From a virus, in IMG/VR virus record IMGVR_UViG_3300047667_000926, positions 1 to 37,743 of that record: DNA of 37,743 bases; one strand, 5' to 3'. A program made the position numbers and the translations under genes. The notes beneath the pieces were generated by a model. It was not told the DNA's origin. It ran no database searches and saw only the letters and a list, made by a program, of their open reading frames with translations. Of the stretch, positions 1-37,743 are shown piece by piece; the stretch's first letter is position 1, and each line of letters begins with the position of its first letter.

Positions 1-68
1 CCAGAAGACAAAAGTCTAAAGCTAACAAGAGAAAAAGGAAGAGAAGAAACAACCCTACTGTAAAGTAG
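1..68 (+). CDS. 3' fragment of the arginine-rich basic peptide gene
   Basis: The reading frame starting with AGA at position 3 encodes the last 21 residues of the basic peptide whose full copy is at 37630-37710. It ends with TAG at 66-68. It is cut only because the window opens inside the gene, so it is not a separate pseudogene. Confidence 0.6.
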   Translation, partial: RRQKSKANKRKRKRRNNPTVK

Positions 69-101
69 AGTAAAACCGAGTTGCTAAGTAATCCTTAGTA
101 A
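1..101. repeat. Terminal direct repeat, left copy
   Basis: This stretch recurs at 37643-37743 with mismatches only at positions 68, 69 and 76. It shows that the two ends of the window overlap, so the molecule is circular, circularly permuted or has a short terminal repeat. The copy holds the 3' end of the basic peptide gene (stop TAG at 66-68 here, TAA in the other copy) and most of the hairpin at 78-104. Confidence 0.9.
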
Positions 102-2074: not shown

Positions 2075-3385
2075 ATGACAAAACAAGTAAAGATTCCACA
2101 TAATCTAGAATACAGAGGCTATCAAACTCCACTCAGAGACTATATGAGGGAATGAGGTAGTTTTTTAGGTAAGAGAGCTGTAACTAAATGGCATCGTAGA
2201 GCATGAAAAGATAAGACCTTCTTTAATTTAACTGTAGAAGCAGCAATAAGAGAGGTTTGAGGTTATGCTTATATTTTACCTACTTATGCACAAGGTAGAA
2301 AGATTATATGGGATTCAATAGATAAGATGTGATTAAAGTTTAAAGATCATATACCAAATGAAGCCCTAGAGAATACAAACACGGTAGAACTTAAATTCAA
2401 CTTAAAGAATTGAAGTTTTATTCAAATACTATGATCAGATAGAATAGATACGATCAGATGAACGAACTGGAAATGAGTTATATTCTCAGAGTATGCTTTC
2501 CAGAATCCTACTGTTTGGGATGTATTAAGACCTATTCTTGCTGAAAATGGTTGATGGGCTATATTTAATTCAACTCCTAATGGTAAGAATCACTTTTATG
2601 ATATGTGTGAGAATGCTAAAGATAATTCTAAATGGTTCTATCAAAGTTTAACAGTTGAAGATACTTGAGTTGTAAGTGCTGAATACATACAATGAGAGAG
2701 AGAAGAATGAATGACTGAGGAAATGATACAGCAAGAGTTTTATGTATCGTTTGAAGTAGGTGCAATATGATCTTATTACGCTGATCTTATGACTAAGGCT
2801 AATAATGAATGAAGAATCACTAAATTACCTAAATTATTTAATCAAGTTGATATTTACTTTGATCTATGAAGGAATGATTCAACTGCTGTATGGATGAAAC
2901 AGAATGATTGACAGTTTTATAATTTTATACATTCTTACGAAGCAAGTTGATTACATATTTCAAGATACTTTGATTATATAGATGATTACCTAGCAGAACA
3001 TAACCTACAGCTAGGGCAATTATTCTTTCCTCATGATAGTACTCAAAAGCATATAGAAGCAGAGAAAAGCAGTCTACAGTTAGCTCAAGAAAGGTATTGA
3101 GTACATAAGATTCATTATATTACTAGAACAACTAGTGTACAAAAAGATAGAGATGCTGTAAGAGCTATTCTTCCTAAATGTAGATTTGATATAGATTGAT
3201 GTAAGCAAGGAATAAGGTGTTTAGAAAGTTATCATAAAAAGTATGATGATAAAAGAAAAGTATACTTAGATACTCATGATCATGATTGGTCTTCTCATGC
3301 AGCGGATTCATTTAGATACTTTGCTGTTACTCAAAGAACAGAGCCTAAAGTTATTAATAAAATTAAAAGGGTATCAATAAGGTAA
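2075..3385 (+). CDS. terL: Terminase large subunit
   Basis: This 436-residue protein pumps DNA into the prohead and cuts it. The ATPase part shows a Walker A-like WHRRAGKD at residues 39-46 (Gly 44 is TGA) and a Walker B ending VIFSE with Glu 139. The coupling motif FNSTPNG follows. The RNase H-like nuclease part shows Asp 263 in YFDLGRND, Asp 321 in PHDST and Asp 411 in HAADSFRY. All the expected acidic residues are present, and the length is typical. A 64-base gap with no clear gene separates it from the small subunit. Confidence 0.95.
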
Positions 3386-5610: not shown

Positions 5611-5859
5611 ATGAAATTAGATAAATTACAAAAGGAAGATTTAAAAAGTCTTACAGAACATAGAGGATTTAAAATCCTAGAAGAGTTAGTGAAAGATATG
5701 GAATATAGTCTACTTAGTAAGTTTAAAACTCATAACTTAGCACTTGAATGAGTGGCTATAGCTCTTAGTAATTCGCAGAATATGTTATCATGAGCTGAGT
5801 ACTTAATTAATACTGCAAAAACATCTACTCAACAAATAGTAAAAAAAGATTTAGGTTAG
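5611..5859 (+). CDS. Hypothetical head-region protein
   Basis: Eighty-two residues, largely helical, with two Gly encoded by TGA (LEGVA, LSGAE). The start follows AAAAGGAAT. Its last codons lie in the left arm of the terminator that follows, so the gene and its terminator overlap. No family recognised; it may be a minor head or connector protein by position. Confidence 0.7.
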
Positions 5860-5876
5860 CTCCTAGTCTTTTTTTC
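5841..5876 (+). terminator. Intrinsic terminator after the portal cluster
   Basis: AAAAAAAGA (5841-5849) and TAGG (5852-5855) pair with CCTA (5862-5865) and TCTTTTTTT (5867-5875) around a 6-base loop. The T run forms the release tract. It lies immediately before the scaffold promoter. Confidence 0.75.
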
Positions 5877-6531: not shown

Positions 6532-7371
6532 ATGCCAAATACAATTATCCTAAGAGAAAATCTTAGAGACAAAATCGCTCTATTTAGAGATCAAAATTTC
6601 GTTGTTGTACCTTTCTTCAATAGAGAATTTGAAGGAGAATTAACTAAAGCTGGTGATACAGTTCTAGTAGAAGTATTCCCAGATACTGCGTGGACTGACG
6701 CTACAGTTGCTGATGCAGGTAATGCAATTACAATTACTGATTTCGCAATTACTACAGAATCTTTCCAAGTATTACAAGTTGCTCAAATCGGGCAAAGAGT
6801 AAAAGACATTGAAAAAGTTAGATCTAACCTAAACTTACAAAATGAATTAGCTAAAAGAATTGGTTATAACCAAGCTCTTAAATTTGACACATACGCAACT
6901 GCTCAAGCTATTGCTGGTGTTGGTGCTGCTAATATATTAACTCCTGCTACTGCATTAACAGCTGCTAATATCTATAATCATTTCTTACTAGGTACTACTG
7001 CTTTAATTGAAGCAAATGTAGATCCTTTAGTTACTCCAGTTGCTTGTTTCGTAGAACCTAAATATTCTGCATTATTAAAACAATCAGGTGTATTAGACGG
7101 TACTGATGGAGGACTTGATATTAGAATGAAAGGGTTTATTGGTATGTTAGACGGTGTTAGATTATACACTACTAACTCTATGCAAAATGTTGATAGAATC
7201 TTGTTTATGCAAGATAAATCAGGTCACTTTGTAGATCAATTAAATCAACTTGAAGTAGAAAAAGAAGTAGGTGCATTCTCTCATATTATAACTGGTGAAG
7301 TTGTATATGATGCTAAAATTATGACATCTAACGGTCTTAGACTAGCAACAGTTAATTATACTGCTATATAA
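6532..7371 (+). CDS. Major capsid protein (HK97-fold, probable)
   Basis: The 279-residue protein follows the scaffold gene and matches the size and pattern of HK97-fold coat proteins: an N-terminal segment, FPDTAWTDATV-type strands, an internal domain, and a C-terminal region with IITGEVVYDAKIMTSNGLR. It is the only gene of any length uninterrupted under the standard code. All 19 glycines use GGT (14), GGA (3) or GGG (2) and none uses TGA. Heavy expression is expected, so the codon choice probably reflects translational selection. Confidence 0.85.
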   Translation: MPNTIILRENLRDKIALFRDQNFVVVPFFNREFEGELTKAGDTVLVEVFPDTAWTDATVADAGNAITITDFAITTESFQVLQVAQIGQRVKDIEKVRSNLNLQNELAKRIGYNQALKFDTYATAQAIAGVGAANILTPATALTAANIYNHFLLGTTALIEANVDPLVTPVACFVEPKYSALLKQSGVLDGTDGGLDIRMKGFIGMLDGVRLYTTNSMQNVDRILFMQDKSGHFVDQLNQLEVEKEVGAFSHIITGEVVYDAKIMTSNGLRLATVNYTAI

Positions 7372-14336: not shown

Positions 14337-14504
14337 ATGACACTATTATATATTATACTGGGGACTTTCTTAATATGATGGGGATTCGAATCTATAAAAG
14401 CTATTATTATAGATTTAAATTACATCTATGTGTTAAAACTTTCCTTAGTATTTATATGTATATGAAGTACAATACATTTATTACAATATCTTGTAACTTG
14501 ATAG
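14337..14504 (+). CDS. Small membrane protein
   Basis: Fifty-five residues with two hydrophobic stretches (about 1-15 and 33-50), the first ending LIGWG with TGA as Gly. It is placed between virion and fibre genes, 5 bases after the former. Function unknown. Confidence 0.65.
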
Positions 14505-24183: not shown

Positions 24184-24342
24184 ATGGAAAACTTCGAGAC
24201 TAAACTAGCCGATGTTGTTATATGAACATTAATTGTAACTACAGTAGCTTGAATAGCTGTAGTGTGATTAACTTTAATCGTTGTTTTACATACAAGAAAC
24301 AAAGTTTATAAGATCCTAGGGAAAGAAGAAGTTGATATATAA
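24184..24342 (+). CDS. Small membrane protein
   Basis: Fifty-two residues: an amphipathic N-terminus, a hydrophobic helix (about 10-34, three Gly as TGA) and a basic-acidic tail. It is the last gene before the non-coding region. Role unknown; possibly a holin partner. Confidence 0.6.
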
Positions 24343-24377
24343 TAGATAATCAATATAATACATATACATTTCAAAAG

Positions 24378-24405
24378 AAACTCTTACGACACATAAGAGT
24401 TTTTT
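24378..24405 (+). terminator. Intrinsic terminator closing the lysis block
   Basis: A perfect 9-bp stem AAACTCTTA/TAAGAGTTT with a 7-base loop runs into a T tract (24400-24405). It separates the preceding genes from the small transcription units. Confidence 0.85.
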
Positions 24406-24406
24406 G

Positions 24407-24434
24407 TTGCATTAAATTCAGAAATTATTATAAT
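24407..24434 (+). promoter_or_regulatory. Promoter TTGCAT-16-TATAAT (small RNA)
   Basis: TTGCAT (24407-24412) and TATAAT (24429-24434) with a 16-base gap, directly after a terminator. A start near 24441 is expected. Confidence 0.75.
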
Positions 24435-24440
24435 ATATCT

Positions 24441-24617
24441 ATGTAACAGTAGACCTTTCTATGCGTTTTATGAAACGGTCACTTTACAACAGGAAACAAA
24501 CCAACGCAGTACCTCAGGAGGTGATTAAGCCTATCTATTCTAACAGAATCTTGTTAGTCTTATGAAAAGTATAATCCCGACAGACCTTTCGCCCTATGTT
24601 ACTAGGGCTTTTTTTTT
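24441..24617 (+). ncRNA. Candidate small RNA, about 175 nt
   Basis: The element has its own promoter upstream and ends in a terminator (GCCCTA/TAGGGC, 24591-24608, then nine T). Predicted stems are GACC/GGTC with GTTT/AAAC inside (24452-24480) and CTAACA/TGTTAG (24540-24557), and a palindrome ACCTC-AG-GAGGT lies at 24511-24522. The motif AGACCTTTC occurs near both ends. G+C is higher than around it. An alternative is a 37-codon ORF at 24461-24574 (start MRFMKRSLYN, one TGA Gly) without a ribosome site and with codons rare elsewhere here. Confidence 0.55.
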
Positions 24618-24643
24618 GACTTTAAATCATTTCTCAATATACT
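24616..24643 (+). promoter_or_regulatory. Promoter TTGACT-16-TATACT
   Basis: TTGACT (24616-24621) starts inside the T tract of the preceding terminator; TATACT is at 24638-24643 with a 16-base gap. A start near 24650 is expected. Confidence 0.65.
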
Positions 24644-24649
24644 AGTTGC

Positions 24650-24703
24650 ACAGAATAAACAATAAGTGGTTACATAAAAAGTCTTTGCAAGGGGCTTTTT
24701 TTG
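24650..24703 (+). ncRNA. Candidate very short RNA, about 55 nt
   Basis: Between the promoter at 24616 and a terminator (AAAAAGTC paired with GGCTTTTT, 24676-24698, plus a T tract) there is room only for a short transcript. It has no ORF. The pairing includes one G-U. Function unknown. Confidence 0.45.
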
Positions 24704-24736
24704 TTGTAATCTTCACGAACTCTCTACATAATCCTA

Positions 24737-24764
24737 TTGTAAAGCCATCATAAATATATACAAT
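24737..24764 (+). promoter_or_regulatory. Promoter TTGTAA-16-TACAAT
   Basis: TTGTAA (24737-24742) and TACAAT (24759-24764) with a 16-base gap, 28 bases before the 27-codon ORF. Confidence 0.55.
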
Positions 24765-24792
24765 ATACATACTTAATGTATAAGAAATAACT

Positions 24793-24876
24793 ATGAAGAA
24801 AGAAGAAACAGCCCTCACTAGATACGCTAGAGAAATGAAAGAAGAAAGAATGTATAGATTACAGACTGAGTGTTAA
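24793..24876 (+). CDS. 27-residue peptide in its own transcription unit
   Basis: It begins MKKEETALTRYAREMK and ends QTEC, highly charged and helical with no Gly. A promoter precedes it and its last two codons form the left arm of the terminator. The tight promoter-ORF-terminator arrangement supports a real small gene, although the RNA itself could be the product. Confidence 0.5.
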   Translation: MKKEETALTRYAREMKEERMYRLQTEC

Positions 24877-24893
24877 ATCGACACTCTTTTTTT
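24868..24893 (+). terminator. Intrinsic terminator overlapping the 27-residue ORF
   Basis: GAGTGT (24868-24873) pairs with ACACTC (24881-24886), followed by seven more T. The stop codon is in the loop. Confidence 0.85.
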
Positions 24894-24915
24894 ATGTCTC
24901 AAAATATTACAGTTA

Positions 24916-24942
24916 TGATACATGTATAGCTTATATGTATCA
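24916..24942. promoter_or_regulatory. Inverted repeat, possible operator
   Basis: TGATACAT (24916-24923) and ATGTATCA (24935-24942) form a perfect 8-bp inverted repeat with 11 bases between, lying 28 bases upstream of the -35 box of the replication promoter. The size suits a dimeric HTH repressor such as the one encoded at 33157. Confidence 0.4.
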
Positions 24943-24970
24943 GGTGTGATAAGTTTTTTAGACTTTTTAT

Positions 24971-24998
24971 TTGTTTTTATTTAAGTTTATGATATAAT
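24971..24998 (+). promoter_or_regulatory. Promoter TTGTTT-16-TGATATAAT (replication operon)
   Basis: TTGTTT (24971-24976) and TATAAT (24993-24998) with a 16-base gap and a TG element at 24990-24991. It is the obvious start for the replication and recombination genes. The expected +1 is near 25005. Confidence 0.8.
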
Positions 24999-25004
24999 AC
25001 TCGT

Positions 25005-25096
25005 GACTAAAGAGATTAAATAGTTCCGACAATCAAATTTAAGACTCATATTTGTAGGTTCTCTTTAGTCGGAACAGCCTACAGGTATGAGTTTTT
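25005..25096 (+). promoter_or_regulatory. Structured leader with exclusive pairings
   Basis: Three strong helices compete. Helix A pairs 25005-25015 with 25060-25070 (11 bp). Helix B pairs 25023-25030 with 25068-25075 (8 bp). Helix C pairs 25041-25050 with 25086-25095 and includes 25053-25058/25078-25083. A and B share bases 25068-25070, and their right arms lie in the loop of C, so pseudoknot or switching is possible. The leader ends 15 bases before the initiator ATG. It looks like an attenuator or translational switch, ligand unknown. Confidence 0.6.
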
Positions 25097-25110
25097 AATT
25101 GTATAGAATT

Positions 25111-25884
25111 ATGGAATGATTTATACAGCTTCATAGAAAGATGCTGGAATGGGAATGGTATGATGATATAAATACAAAGACATTATTTATACATTTACTA
25201 CTAAAAGCTAATTGGAAAGATAAGAATTGGAGAGGTATATATATAAAAAGATGAGAGCTATTAACATGAAGAATAACACTTGCTGCTGAGACCTGATTAT
25301 CAGAACAACAGATAAGGACTTCACTTACTAAGCTAAAATCAACCAGCGAGATAACCATCAAACCAACCAGTAAATATAGCATTGTTAAGCTATTAAACTA
25401 CAATGAGTATCAATGAGATAACCAGCAAGATAACCAACAAGCAACCAACAAGCAACCAGCAAGTAACCAACAAGTAACCACTACTAATAAGGTTAATAAT
25501 AATAATAAAGAAAATAATATAATTAAGTCTATAGATAAGGAAGTTTCAATCGCAACTAAAGTTGCTACCCTAGAATCATATATAAAGAATGATTTTAGTT
25601 TAGAATTTATTTCAGATATATATAATAAATACAACTTAACTAAAACAGACTTTCAAGAAGAGTGTGAATCATTTTTATTATACTGGAAAGAGAAATCTAT
25701 TAATTGAAAAAAGGAAAGACGGGAGAAAGAGAAAACATTTGACCCAAAGCTTAGATTCAGAAACTGGATGAAGAACAATGATAAGTGGAGTAAAACAGTT
25801 ATTGTAAATTCAGAAGATGATGAGAATAAAAGAAAGCTAGAAGAGATAGAAAGAAAGAAGAGAGATTTATTTAATAAATTTTAG
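25111..25884 (+). CDS. Replication initiator (phage winged-helix/DnaD type)
   Basis: The 257-residue protein begins MEGFIQLHRKMLEWEWYDD, continues LFIHLLLKANWKDKNWRG and IKRGELLTGR, then an HTH (LAAETGLSEQQIRTSLTKL) and EITIKPTSKYSIVKLLNY. This is the common N-terminal domain of phage replication proteins that bind the origin. A Gln/Asn/Thr-rich linker from short CAACAAG-type repeats (25420-25500) follows, then a helical C-terminal domain that probably contacts the host helicase loader. It is the first gene of the operon, controlled by the leader. Confidence 0.85.
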
Positions 25885-30172: not shown

Positions 30173-30715
30173 ATGGAAACAAATATATATAAGAAATTAT
30201 TTGAAGTAAAGAAAGCAGGAATAAAACTTACAAGAGATACAAAAGCATTTAATTACAAATATGCTACATTATCTCAGATACAAGAAAAACTAAATTGAGA
30301 ATTAGAAAAACAATGATTGCTAGTATTTCATTTAATAAAAGATAATTCTGTTTGTACTATTATACAAGATATAGAATCTGAAAGACATATAGAAAGTTCA
30401 ATACAATTATCAGAATGAACTAAGCCACAAGATAAAGGTTCAGAAATAACATATTACAGACGCTATAATCTATTATCATTACTAGATCTAGAAGTTGAAG
30501 ATGATGACTGAAAGAAAGCACAAGATAGTTGATGAGCTAAAAAAGAATTTAAAGGAAAGTTTGATCTAATGGATTATATACAAAGAATCAAAGATGAAAC
30601 AGATGTAAATGCTCTTGATAGTTTATACAAAGAATTTATAGCTGAATGACCAACTCAAAAACAAATAGATTGGTTTGTGAAAGATTGTAAAATAAAGAAA
30701 GAACAACTTATATAA
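30173..30715 (+). CDS. erf: ERF-family single-strand annealing protein
   Basis: The 180-residue protein has FNYKYATLSQIQEKL near residue 27, then KGSEITYYRRYNLLSLLDLEVEDDDG, the signature block of ERF recombinases, which anneal single strands and may circularise DNA. A variable linker and a helical C-terminal domain follow. The start is preceded by AAAGG. Neighbours with nuclease, RusA and NinB-like functions support a recombination module. Confidence 0.9.
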
Positions 30716-32074: not shown

Positions 32075-32341
32075 ATGTGAACAGCAGTATTGATATATGA
32101 AGATTGAGAATCGGAAACATTTGGTTGTGAAAATAAGAGTTGGGCAGATTATTGGATAAGAAGAAGATATGAAAAATGAAGAAGAATAGTAGTACAGGCA
32201 TATTATGCAACAAAAGATAATGAAATAAACCCAAAGAAGATTATAGATAAATATATAGAAGAAGAACAAGAGCAACAGGAGGAAGAAAATGAAAGAAGAG
32301 AAAAAGCAGAATTAGAAAGGCTTAAATATAAATATAAATAA
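32075..32341 (+). CDS. Hypothetical protein
   Basis: Eighty-eight residues, opening ATG TGA ACA. It has a YWIRRRYEKGRRIVVQAYYA strand-helix part and a Glu/Gln/Lys-rich helical end. Its stop TAA overlaps the next ATG by one base. No family recognised. Confidence 0.65.
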
Positions 32342-32727
32342 TGAAATGAACTAAAGAAGTAATCCAAGAGTATATAGATAATTGAAAAGAGGATCAAGAA
32401 TATATAATCGAAAAAACTACAACAAAAGCAGGGAGATCACAAGCACAAAATAGAACATTCTGGAAAATATTTAAAGGAATAGGAGATAAGCTATGATATT
32501 CGAAAGAAATCGTAAGAACGAATATACTCACAGCTTTATTCTGAACCTATGAAGTACAGATGTTTTGATCTACTCACTTAATAGCAAATAAAACAAGTAC
32601 AGCAACTCTTACAAAAGAAGAGGGAATACAAGTAATAGACGGAGCTTTAGCTTATGCAACTAAAATAGATGCAGGAATTACTATAACACCAAGGGAGATA
32701 ACAAGTTTATACGAATCTTTTAATTAA
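32341..32727 (+). CDS. NinB-like recombination protein (tentative)
   Basis: The 128-residue protein has GRSQAQNRTFWKIFKGIGDK, a helical middle, TSTATLTKEEGIQVIDGALAYA and a hydrophobic-polar end. NinB proteins of lambdoid phages share an N-terminal R-S-x-x-Q-N segment and the TST-L pattern, and bind single-stranded DNA to aid recombination. The match is partial. Context with ERF and RusA supports it. Confidence 0.55.
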
Positions 32728-35981: not shown

Positions 35982-36572
35982 ATGAAGATACTTAATTTAT
36001 ACGCTTGACTATGATGAAATAGAACATTATGGTGAGATGAACATGAAATAACAGCAGTTGAAATAAACCCAGATATAGCAAAAGTATACCAAGATAGATT
36101 TCCAAATGATACAGTCATTGTATGAGATGCACATGAATACCTATTAGAAAATTATGACAAGTTTGATTTTATATGGACTTCTCCACCTTGTCAGTCTCAT
36201 TCTAGCTTTAGACAAAACATAGGAGTAAGATATAGAGGAGTAAAAGCTATTTATCCAGATATGAAACTATGGCAAGAGATCATATTCCTACAAGCTAATT
36301 GTAAGTGAAAATATGTAGTCGAGAATGTAAAACCATATTATAAATCTCTTATAGAACCGTCAGTAGTCTTACAAAGACATTACTTCTGGGCTAACTTTGA
36401 AATAGAACAAGTAGAGATAGAACAGGATAAGATCAGAACAGCACAAATTCCAGATTTACAAAAATTACATTGAATAGATTTATCAGAAGTTAAGATCAAA
36501 GATAAAAGGCAATTATTAAGGAATTGTGTACATTACAAACTCTGAGAACATATTATTAATAATATAAAATAA
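35982..36572 (+). CDS. DNA (cytosine-5) methyltransferase, short form
   Basis: The 196-residue protein shows motif I (LNLYAGLGGNR; three Gly are TGA), motif IV SPPCQS with Cys70, motif VI VENV with Glu114, and a RHYFWANFEI end typical of short phage C5 methyltransferases. It would methylate cytosines and may protect phage DNA from host restriction. It lacks an obvious large target recognition domain and motifs VIII-X, as in other short forms. Confidence 0.85.
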
Positions 36573-36575
36573 CCT

Positions 36576-36932
36576 ATGGAAAAGTATAGACAAGACCACC
36601 TAGAAAGAATTATAGAAAGCCATGATGAAGAAGCAAAAACTATAATGTTGAAAAGCTCAGTGATAGCATATAACAACCTCCCTGAATGAGATTGTGCTGG
36701 AAATAAACTAGAGATAGCTGAGACAATAACTAAACTAACAGAAAGCGTAAATAGAAAAGTTGTTTATGTAATAGATAAATGAGAATATCTCAGTATGTGA
36801 ACAGTAAAAGAAAAAGATTCTAATATAAGAGATATATCAACAGCAGATTGGATAAAACTAATGGAAGCTAAATTATGAGATGTCAATGAAATACAAGAAG
36901 TAATAAGAGAGATTTTAGATGATAATGAATAA
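36576..36932 (+). CDS. Hypothetical protein
   Basis: The 118-residue protein has two helical parts around a strand-rich centre (RKVVYVIDKGEYLSMGTV). It lies three bases after the methyltransferase gene and may be its partner. No family recognised. Confidence 0.7.
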
Positions 36933-36935
36933 AGG

Positions 36936-37328
36936 ATGAGGGGAATAAAGTTCAGAGCTTGGGATAAAGAAGAAAATAGAATGATTTATGATACTGAAAG
37001 AGATTCAATGAGTTATTGGGATTGAGTAACTTGAACATCGGTTGAGATAGTAAATAGCCAATTAAGGAGTAATTCCTATGAGTGGTTACAGTTTACATGA
37101 CTCAAAGATAAGAACGGGAAAGAGATATATGAGGGGGATGTGGTAGAAAATAAAAGAAACTCTGTTAAAGATCTTATTGAAGATAACACTACAGTATGGA
37201 ATAGATGAGAAGTAAGATTTGATAACTCAGCATTCAGAGTACACGCATTTACCTTAAACCAGATTGCAAGAGATCTTGAAATAATCTGAAACATACACGA
37301 GAATAAAGAACTATTAACTAATGAATAA
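36936..37328 (+). CDS. YopX-family protein
   Basis: The 130-residue protein opens MRGIKFRAWDKEENRM and has EWLQFTGLKDKNGKEIYEGD, VVENK and IIGNIHENKELL, the standard YopX pattern of phage proteins with an unsettled role. AAAGG precedes the start. Gly of FTGLK, IIGNI and NRGEV are TGA. Confidence 0.85.
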
Positions 37329-37331
37329 ACT

Positions 37332-37496
37332 ATGTATATAGATGAAGAAGGATATTTGTGTAAAAATGTGATAGACAAATCAACATATATTCCAAGCACA
37401 ACACCATGAGTTTTCTGAGGGACTGTAAAAAGAAGGATTACTAAATACAAAGTAAATAAAGACTGATTATTTGAAGAAGTTATACTTGATTTATAA
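37332..37496 (+). CDS. Hypothetical 54-residue protein
   Basis: Strand-rich small protein (GYLCKNVIDKSTYIPSTTPG). Its end overlaps the -35 box of the next promoter. No family recognised. Confidence 0.6.
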
Positions 37497-37512
37497 TTAA
37501 AATCATTATAAT
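37486..37512 (+). promoter_or_regulatory. Promoter TTGATT-15-TATAAT
   Basis: TTGATT (37486-37491) and TATAAT (37507-37512) have a 15-base gap (CTTGAT gives 16). The expected +1 near 37519 begins a 14-base palindrome GCTATG-TA-CATAGC (37519-37532). Confidence 0.6.
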
Positions 37513-37533
37513 AGATAGGCTATGTACATAGCA

Positions 37534-37572
37534 GTGTAATGGGATAGTTACTCCTTTGCTATCCTATTACAC
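37534..37572 (+). promoter_or_regulatory. Leader hairpin with anti-Shine-Dalgarno loop
   Basis: A 14-bp stem (37534-37547/37559-37572, one G-U) carries an 11-base loop holding CTCCTTT (37551-37557). This is exactly complementary to AAAGGAG (37616-37622), the ribosome site of the basic peptide gene, and also resembles the 16S rRNA 3' end. Confidence 0.55.
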
Positions 37573-37576
37573 ATTC

Positions 37577-37705
37577 ATGGACAAACATATCAATAAAGAT
37601 ATTAAGTTCACCATAAAAGGAGATAAGCTATGAGAGGACAAGCCAGAAGACAAAAGTCTAAAGCTAACAAGAGAAAAAGGAAGAGAAGAAACAACCCTAC
37701 TGTAA
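37577..37705 (+). CDS. Overlapping 42-codon ORF (alternative)
   Basis: It begins ATG GAC 4 bases after the leader hairpin and reads MDKHINKDIKFTIKG, then one TGA Gly, ending ETTLL. It overlaps the basic peptide in another frame. It has no ribosome site and may only serve as an upstream ORF. Confidence 0.3.
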
Positions 37706-37710
37706 AGTAA
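37630..37710 (+). CDS. Arginine/lysine-rich 26-residue peptide
   Basis: The peptide starts MRGQARRQKSK and has 7 Arg and 6 Lys in 26 residues, with no acidic residue. AAAGGAG lies 7 bases before the ATG, the best ribosome site in the window. Composition suggests a nucleic-acid-condensing or RNA-binding peptide, like small basic proteins packaged with DNA. The final codons lie in the terminal repeat. Confidence 0.65.
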   Translation: MRGQARRQKSKANKRKRKRRNNPTVK

Positions 37711-37743
37711 GGTAAAAACGAGTTGCTAAGTAATCCTTAGTAA
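37643..37743. repeat. Terminal direct repeat, right copy
   Basis: Matches 1-101 at 98 of 101 positions. It carries the 3' end of the basic peptide gene with stop TAA at 37708-37710 and most of the following hairpin. Confidence 0.9.

Follow-up and report, generated by a model that had tools for sequence, protein, structure and literature searches.

We analysed the IMG/VR virus sequence IMGVR_UViG_3300047667_000926 over its whole length (37,743 bases, hereafter the window), and its best-supported feature around a 14-base-pair (bp) hairpin near the right end is a predicted structured RNA leader of ~340 nucleotides (nt), extending from position 37519 through the joined ends of the record to about position 216. 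The hairpin would be the first element of this leader, which sits between replication and structural genes, upstream of those for terminase and head, and would act in cis on late mRNA, chiefly as a structure for stability or processing at the 5' end. A small frame and a ribosome-site-like heptamer would be embedded in it, and pairing of the hairpin loop with that ribosome site may add translational control, which the leader reading does not require. We hold this reading, a structured leader of the late operon that serves RNA stability or processing at the 5' end, with middling confidence. The features on which it bears are as follows:

37507 to 37512, + strand: TATAAT, a possible but weak -10 element
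37519 to 37532, + strand: perfect 14-bp palindrome GCTATGTACATAGC; GCTATG at the start codon is a possible pairing partner of its second half, CATAGC
37534 to 37572, + strand: leader hairpin of 14 bp with an 11-nt loop (from the sequence, a hairpin search and the fold)
37551 to 37557, + strand: loop heptamer CTCCTTT, exact complement of AAAGGAG at 37616 to 37622
37577 to 37705, + strand: overlapping 42-residue frame that reads its single TGA as Gly (genetic code 25) and runs through AAA GGA G as codons
37616 to 37622, + strand: AAAGGAG, ribosome-site-like, with a 7-nt spacer to the ATG at 37630
37630 to 37710, + strand: possible gene for a 26-residue peptide rich in lysine and arginine (K/R), ATG at 37630 and TAA at 37708 to 37710
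78 to 104, + strand: second hairpin of 11 bp (one G-U) with loop TAATC, just behind the peptide frame
109 to 204, + strand: 26-bp stem (23 Watson-Crick pairs and 3 G-U) with a 44-nt top, just ahead of the next gene
206 to 212, + strand: CAAAGGA, ribosome-site-like, before the ATG at 217

A preliminary description of this DNA had drawn attention to the 14-bp hairpin, and both the letters of the sequence and the hairpin search confirm it, with arms at 37534 to 37547 and 37559 to 37572 (13 Watson-Crick pairs and one G-U, 37541/37565) and the loop TTACTCCTTTG at 37548 to 37558. Folding of 37517 to 37710 gave a z score of -4.71, with 0 of 200 shuffles equally stable, and in a + strand scan by 120-nt tiles (629 tiles with 30 shuffles each, one of them placed by hand at 37519) the tiles covering the hairpin took ranks 3 and 5. 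The stability of the hairpin is beyond chance, a real outlier. The bases following the stem (ATTCATGG) lack the T run of an intrinsic terminator, and no + strand terminators were found from 36500 to 37743 in a scan that takes loops of 3 to 8 nt and is hence blind to the leader hairpin itself.

The part of the leader beyond the joined ends folds more strongly than the 14-bp hairpin: positions 70 to 216, which hold the 11-bp hairpin and the 26-bp stem (arms 109 to 134 with 179 to 204), gave a z score of -7.53, again with 0 of 200 shuffles as stable. Departures from Watson-Crick pairing number five over the three stems, each of them a G-T on the + strand, with no A-C; as only G-T was permitted when the first two stems were searched for, just the three in the long stem are free of bias. 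These G-T-only departures point to a + strand RNA at the junction of the replication and structural genes.

Such departures, read as a sign of RNA (biased for two of the three stems), argue against an alternative that we consider unlikely, namely that the DNA itself is the signal, i.e., an operator or a site for replication or packaging close to the terminase genes, and that the RNA complementarity is incidental. Its location about 2 kb before TerL and inverted repeats of good length would suit a DNA signal, as would near-matches to the palindrome, which are slightly many (5 with at most 3 mismatches, the palindrome included, versus 1.9 expected, a number reached by 3 of 100 shuffles), but the length of the palindrome is at chance level: the window holds 7 palindromes of at least 14 bp, versus a mean of 5.35 in 20 shuffles. 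We rejected the palindrome as a special operator for its chance-level length, even with the near-matches slightly many. The preliminary description had also set this palindrome at an expected +1. The palindrome is indeed perfect; the +1 is weak, since the only -35-like hexamer seen, TTGATT (37486 to 37491), stands 15 nt from the TATAAT, itself a common motif with 65 copies on the + strand.

The leader is flanked by the frames at 37332 to 37496 and 217 to 393, with the TerL and head genes downstream and the DnaD-like and ERF genes upstream, and the larger genes that define the junction are these:

2075 to 3385: TerL
6532 to 7371: major head protein
25111 to 25884: DnaD-like gene, replication side
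30173 to 30715: ERF gene, replication side
36936 to 37328: YopX family protein (Pfam PF09643, E 1e-23), the last larger gene ahead of the leader

Because the last 101 bases of the record repeat the first 101, a circular or terminally redundant genome is probable, with the leader running on from 37743 to 102. More specifically, 37643 to 37743 (+) equals window positions 1 to 101 except at 3 bases (37710, 37711 and 37718), which fall within 9 bases, none of them earlier than the final base of the peptide frame's stop codon and all ahead of the second hairpin; the copies are identical over the 67 bases preceding and the 25 following these differences, which reflect either two alleles or an effect of assembly. 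The genes are written in genetic code 25 (TGA = glycine), with in-frame TGA in most long frames, and in another record of the same phage (locus L003) long frames cover 0.88 in code 25 versus 0.11 in code 11. From code 25 alone, we take the host to be a member of the Gracilibacteria or Absconditabacteria. Code-25 phages of both groups have been described, and leaders are not treated in the portion of that account available to us (PMC10746230). RNA control in phages of Gracilibacteria or Absconditabacteria was the subject of none of the titles listed in literature searches on such hosts, on their phages and on translation initiation.

The strength of the leader structures relative to shuffles and their position in the genome are matters of observation, the structures themselves being predicted folds. 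An RNA would presumably be made from this DNA and act in cis, and we infer its stability or processing role from general knowledge: phages place 5' stability and processing structures at operon heads. Several points weigh against the leader reading. Joining 37743 to 102 is deduced from the 101-base overlap, and the record offers no proof of circularity. Tiles elsewhere, in or beside genes, took ranks 1, 2 and 4 of the 629. A promoter scan that required a spacing of 16 to 18 nt listed none at the leader. Rfam 15 gave no match at gathering score over the whole window, and weak sub-threshold matches (E up to 5) in 37400 to 37743 and 1 to 260. Four exact DNA patterns from the leader or peptide had 0 matches in viral contigs, and the searches made found no related leader showing conservation. 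For the present, we regard the element as a leader structure that is unproven.

The preliminary description had proposed that the loop hides the ribosome site of the peptide frame, and the exact complementarity behind this proposal, between CTCCTTT (37551 to 37557) and AAAGGAG (37616 to 37622), was borne out letter by letter. In such an H-type pseudoknot, the peptide (and perhaps the next gene) would be translated only once the pairing is opened. Judged by the coordinates, stem 1 would have 14 bp and stem 2 7 bp, with loops 1, 2 and 3 of 3, 1 and 43 nt; these loop lengths are canonical, and the proposed pairing would be sterically sensible and would cover the ribosome site. The 7-nt match is exact and its duplex comes to -9.3 kcal/mol; keeping both strands unpaired would cost 3.9 kcal/mol of the nested fold (counting nested-fold energies only). 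CTCCTTT occurs once on the + strand of the window, and a 7-nt complement was found for 0.30% of window 11-mers in the 17-nt site region and for 0.64% in the 35-nt start region; the duplex energy was reached by 0.64% of 12,578 sampled + strand 11-mers and by 3.0% of those from the - strand. Other comparisons are less favorable. Between 5 and 10% of loop shuffles match as well (the 7-nt match was kept in 4.7% and the duplex energy reached in 10.0%), and a 7-nt complement of the loop lies immediately ahead of an ATG, within 150 nt, for 2 of the 19 + strand and 1 of the 11 - strand hairpins that have 9 or more Watson-Crick pairs. Moreover, the match was picked out after the sequence had been read, not beforehand. 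It is noteworthy and suggestive, not proof, and borderline relative to chance.

The specificity of the pseudoknot is weakened in two further respects: (i) loop bases TCCTTTG (37552 to 37558) are an exact 7-nt complement of CAAAGGA at 206 to 212, ahead of the next gene; and (ii) the peptide reading frame is not confirmed, the overlapping frame making AAAGGAG coding. CTCCTTT resembles the anti-Shine-Dalgarno sequence of 16S rRNA. Because the loop also fits CAAAGGA, it appears to be a general mimic of that 16S sequence rather than the mate of one site. Overall, we consider masking by a pseudoknot possible but doubtful. As none of the relatives found covers the site, loop masking is not yet distinguishable from chance.

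Sites of this kind are few in the phage. Ribosome-site-like sequence (at least 5 nt of the motif) precedes 7 of 67 longer genes, versus 3.9% of 5,000 random positions, and the motif reaches at most 6 nt in all 67, versus 7 nt ahead of the peptide frame. By eye, many gene starts come after AT-rich stretches with a stop nearby. AAAGGAG itself has 4 copies on the + strand, the other three lying inside frames of 269, 129 and 71 residues and being absent among the places where AGGAG is followed by ATG or GTG 3 to 10 nt on. The + strand has 7 such places, 6 of which (all but the present one) fall, to judge by position, within longer frames, and the - strand has 1; the pair alone is therefore not rare and makes no gene. 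The ribosome sites of Gracilibacteria are not dealt with in the part of PMC6851277 accessible to us.

The frame behind AAAGGAG has the start, spacer, stop and basic composition that the preliminary description gave it (26 residues, MRGQARRQKSKANKRKRKRRNNPTVK, 13 of 26 being K or R). Among 95 + strand ATG frames of 20 to 45 codons it ranks first in basic content; at least 45% K+R is reached by just 2 of these, and by 0 of 62 on the - strand. The frame is free of TGA and would give the same peptide in the standard code. None of the three differences between the terminal copies touches the 67 bases of it that were compared, and a stop is retained (TAA to TAG). Three findings count against a gene: its codon score, -0.04, is under the 5th percentile of real gene pieces (0.08), a level often attained by wrong frames; the + strand is purine-rich, which favours K/R codons; and the 42-residue frame overlaps it, with a score of 0.02, as poor as that of the peptide. 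A repeat of AGGAGATAAGCTATGA at 32481, inside the frame at 32341 to 32727, is read there in the same codon phase (GDKLG) as in the 42-residue frame, which slightly favours this rival frame. The peptide had no database matches, and neither frame has found relatives. Thus, the peptide is a possible gene, with good site and spacing and codon use that is not gene-like. A terminator-like site on the - strand (37694 to 37713) overlaps the end of the peptide frame.

The lowest-energy nested fold suggests another kind of masking. In this fold, the leader hairpin is kept and the second half of the palindrome is paired with the start codon (CATAGC with GCTATG), the pairing probability being 0.89 to 0.97 across 37627 to 37632 and opening costing 3.7 kcal/mol, and the hairpin of the palindrome on its own would be the open state. 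Five of the seven ribosome-site bases stay open, the GG of the site being paired at 0.84 to 0.85, so the predicted fold would hide the start codon rather than the ribosome site. Such masking requires a transcript start near 37519, which is unproven; moreover, a match of at least 6 nt was found for 5.5% of window 16-mers, and, with 112 nt of leader folded, the start region takes only rank 42 of 68 for closure. We judge it quite improbable.

Relatives were sought through several genes. A TerL search of viral contigs gave 6 loci, one of them in IMGVR_UViG_3300046534_001172, which is the same phage (99.97 to 99.99% identity in three pieces) and covers only window positions 1621 to 26748. Among the other five, a crude code test also flagged L004, L006 and L007, which we judged to be standard-code (49 to 58% G+C, code 11 already giving frames of 608, 561 and 576 residues); L005 and L008 were not flagged. 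Comparison of 37000 to 37743 with the same-phage record and those of L004, L005 and L008 gave matches of 15 to 30 bases in three and none in that of L004. Against phage records, TerL matched 1057 (best about 43% identity) and the leader 6, the latter with short matches, while TerL patterns gave 24 hits and 0 relatives in genome contigs. The head protein search returned the same-phage record only, and that with the YopX-like neighbour 53 loci (best segments 28 to 53% identity). No hairpin loop with CTCCTTT was listed for 65 loci, save the leader of the window itself (L001). The peptide pattern was absent from viral contigs, and its 2 matches in genome contigs fall within long frames belonging to other genes, so that we put them down to chance; the 42-residue frame, extended to 49, gave 26 pattern hits and 0 relatives.

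A circuit in which the 26-residue peptide binds its own leader hairpin, opens or locks the loop pseudoknot and so sets late-gene translation seems to us very unlikely; if true, it would operate in a code-25 phage whose other genes are mostly without ribosome sites. If real, the element would be an RNA switch heading the late operon of a phage of Gracilibacteria or Absconditabacteria (the host again being taken from code 25 alone), and it would bear on how genomes with few ribosome sites use their few strong ones.

Structure was also seen elsewhere in the window. Between the frame at 24184 to 24342 and the DnaD-like gene lies a long gap (24340 to 25100; overall z score -4.85 versus 20 shuffles) with several terminator-like hairpins, two of them listed at 24591 to 24608 and 24868 to 24886, and with a 20-bp stem at 25041 to 25095, whose width of 5 to 20 pairs depends in part on G-T. 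Within this gap, AGGAGGTGATT (24516 to 24526) is complementary to the usual 16S tail, which its RNA could bind; it lacks an ATG at the distance of a ribosome site, and the possible transcript containing it would stop at the 24591 terminator. The fold of 24440 to 24620 is ordinary (z score -1.21). The most structured 120-nt + strand tile is 14341 to 14460 (z score -5.6), in a 55-residue frame, its wider fold having a z score of -2.1. A terminator-like hairpin at 5841 to 5875, preceded by an A run and followed by a T run, overlaps the end of the frame at 5611 to 5859.

Several known systems resemble parts of this arrangement. The preQ1-II and SAM-II riboswitches form an H-type pseudoknot between a loop strand and the ribosome site; neither is among the weak Rfam matches (E up to 5) in 37400 to 37743 and 1 to 260. 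BoxB of phage lambda is small, and the present stem of 14 bp with an 11-nt loop is unlike it. For the lambda nutL-N leader, a motif and boxB binding are described in the part of PMC11480772 available, and the peptide, at 26 residues versus 107, is far shorter than N. In an in-register comparison for an arginine-rich motif related to N, the 107-residue form of N shares 6 of 21 residues with the peptide, a score that 3.1% of shuffles reach, and N with its longer annotated start shares 1 of 21; the peptide had no match in PDB at E up to 10. The likeness to lambda N may serve as a lead only. Masking of the initiation region by RNA pairing is a feature shared with the phage mRNAs of T4 e, soc, 49 and I-TevI, as the accessible part of PMC3014915 has it, if the proposal for the present leader holds; in those cases a helix holds the site or start codon, whereas a loop-to-site pseudoknot, unproven, is proposed here. 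The nearest described case is the autogenously controlled leader of T4 gene 32, in which a pseudoknot lies about 67 nt upstream of the start, again from the portion of PMC3014915 at hand. As in T4, T2 and RB69 gene 32, a 5' leader structure here lies tens of nt upstream, with 57 nt from hairpin to ATG, and the gene 32 product binds nucleic acid, a property that for the present peptide is guessed from charge alone. The T4 pseudoknot differs in that it nucleates protein binding, with the protein covering the site (the same portion of PMC3014915), and, unlike the present peptide, gp32 is a full protein and the T4 case is supported by relatives.
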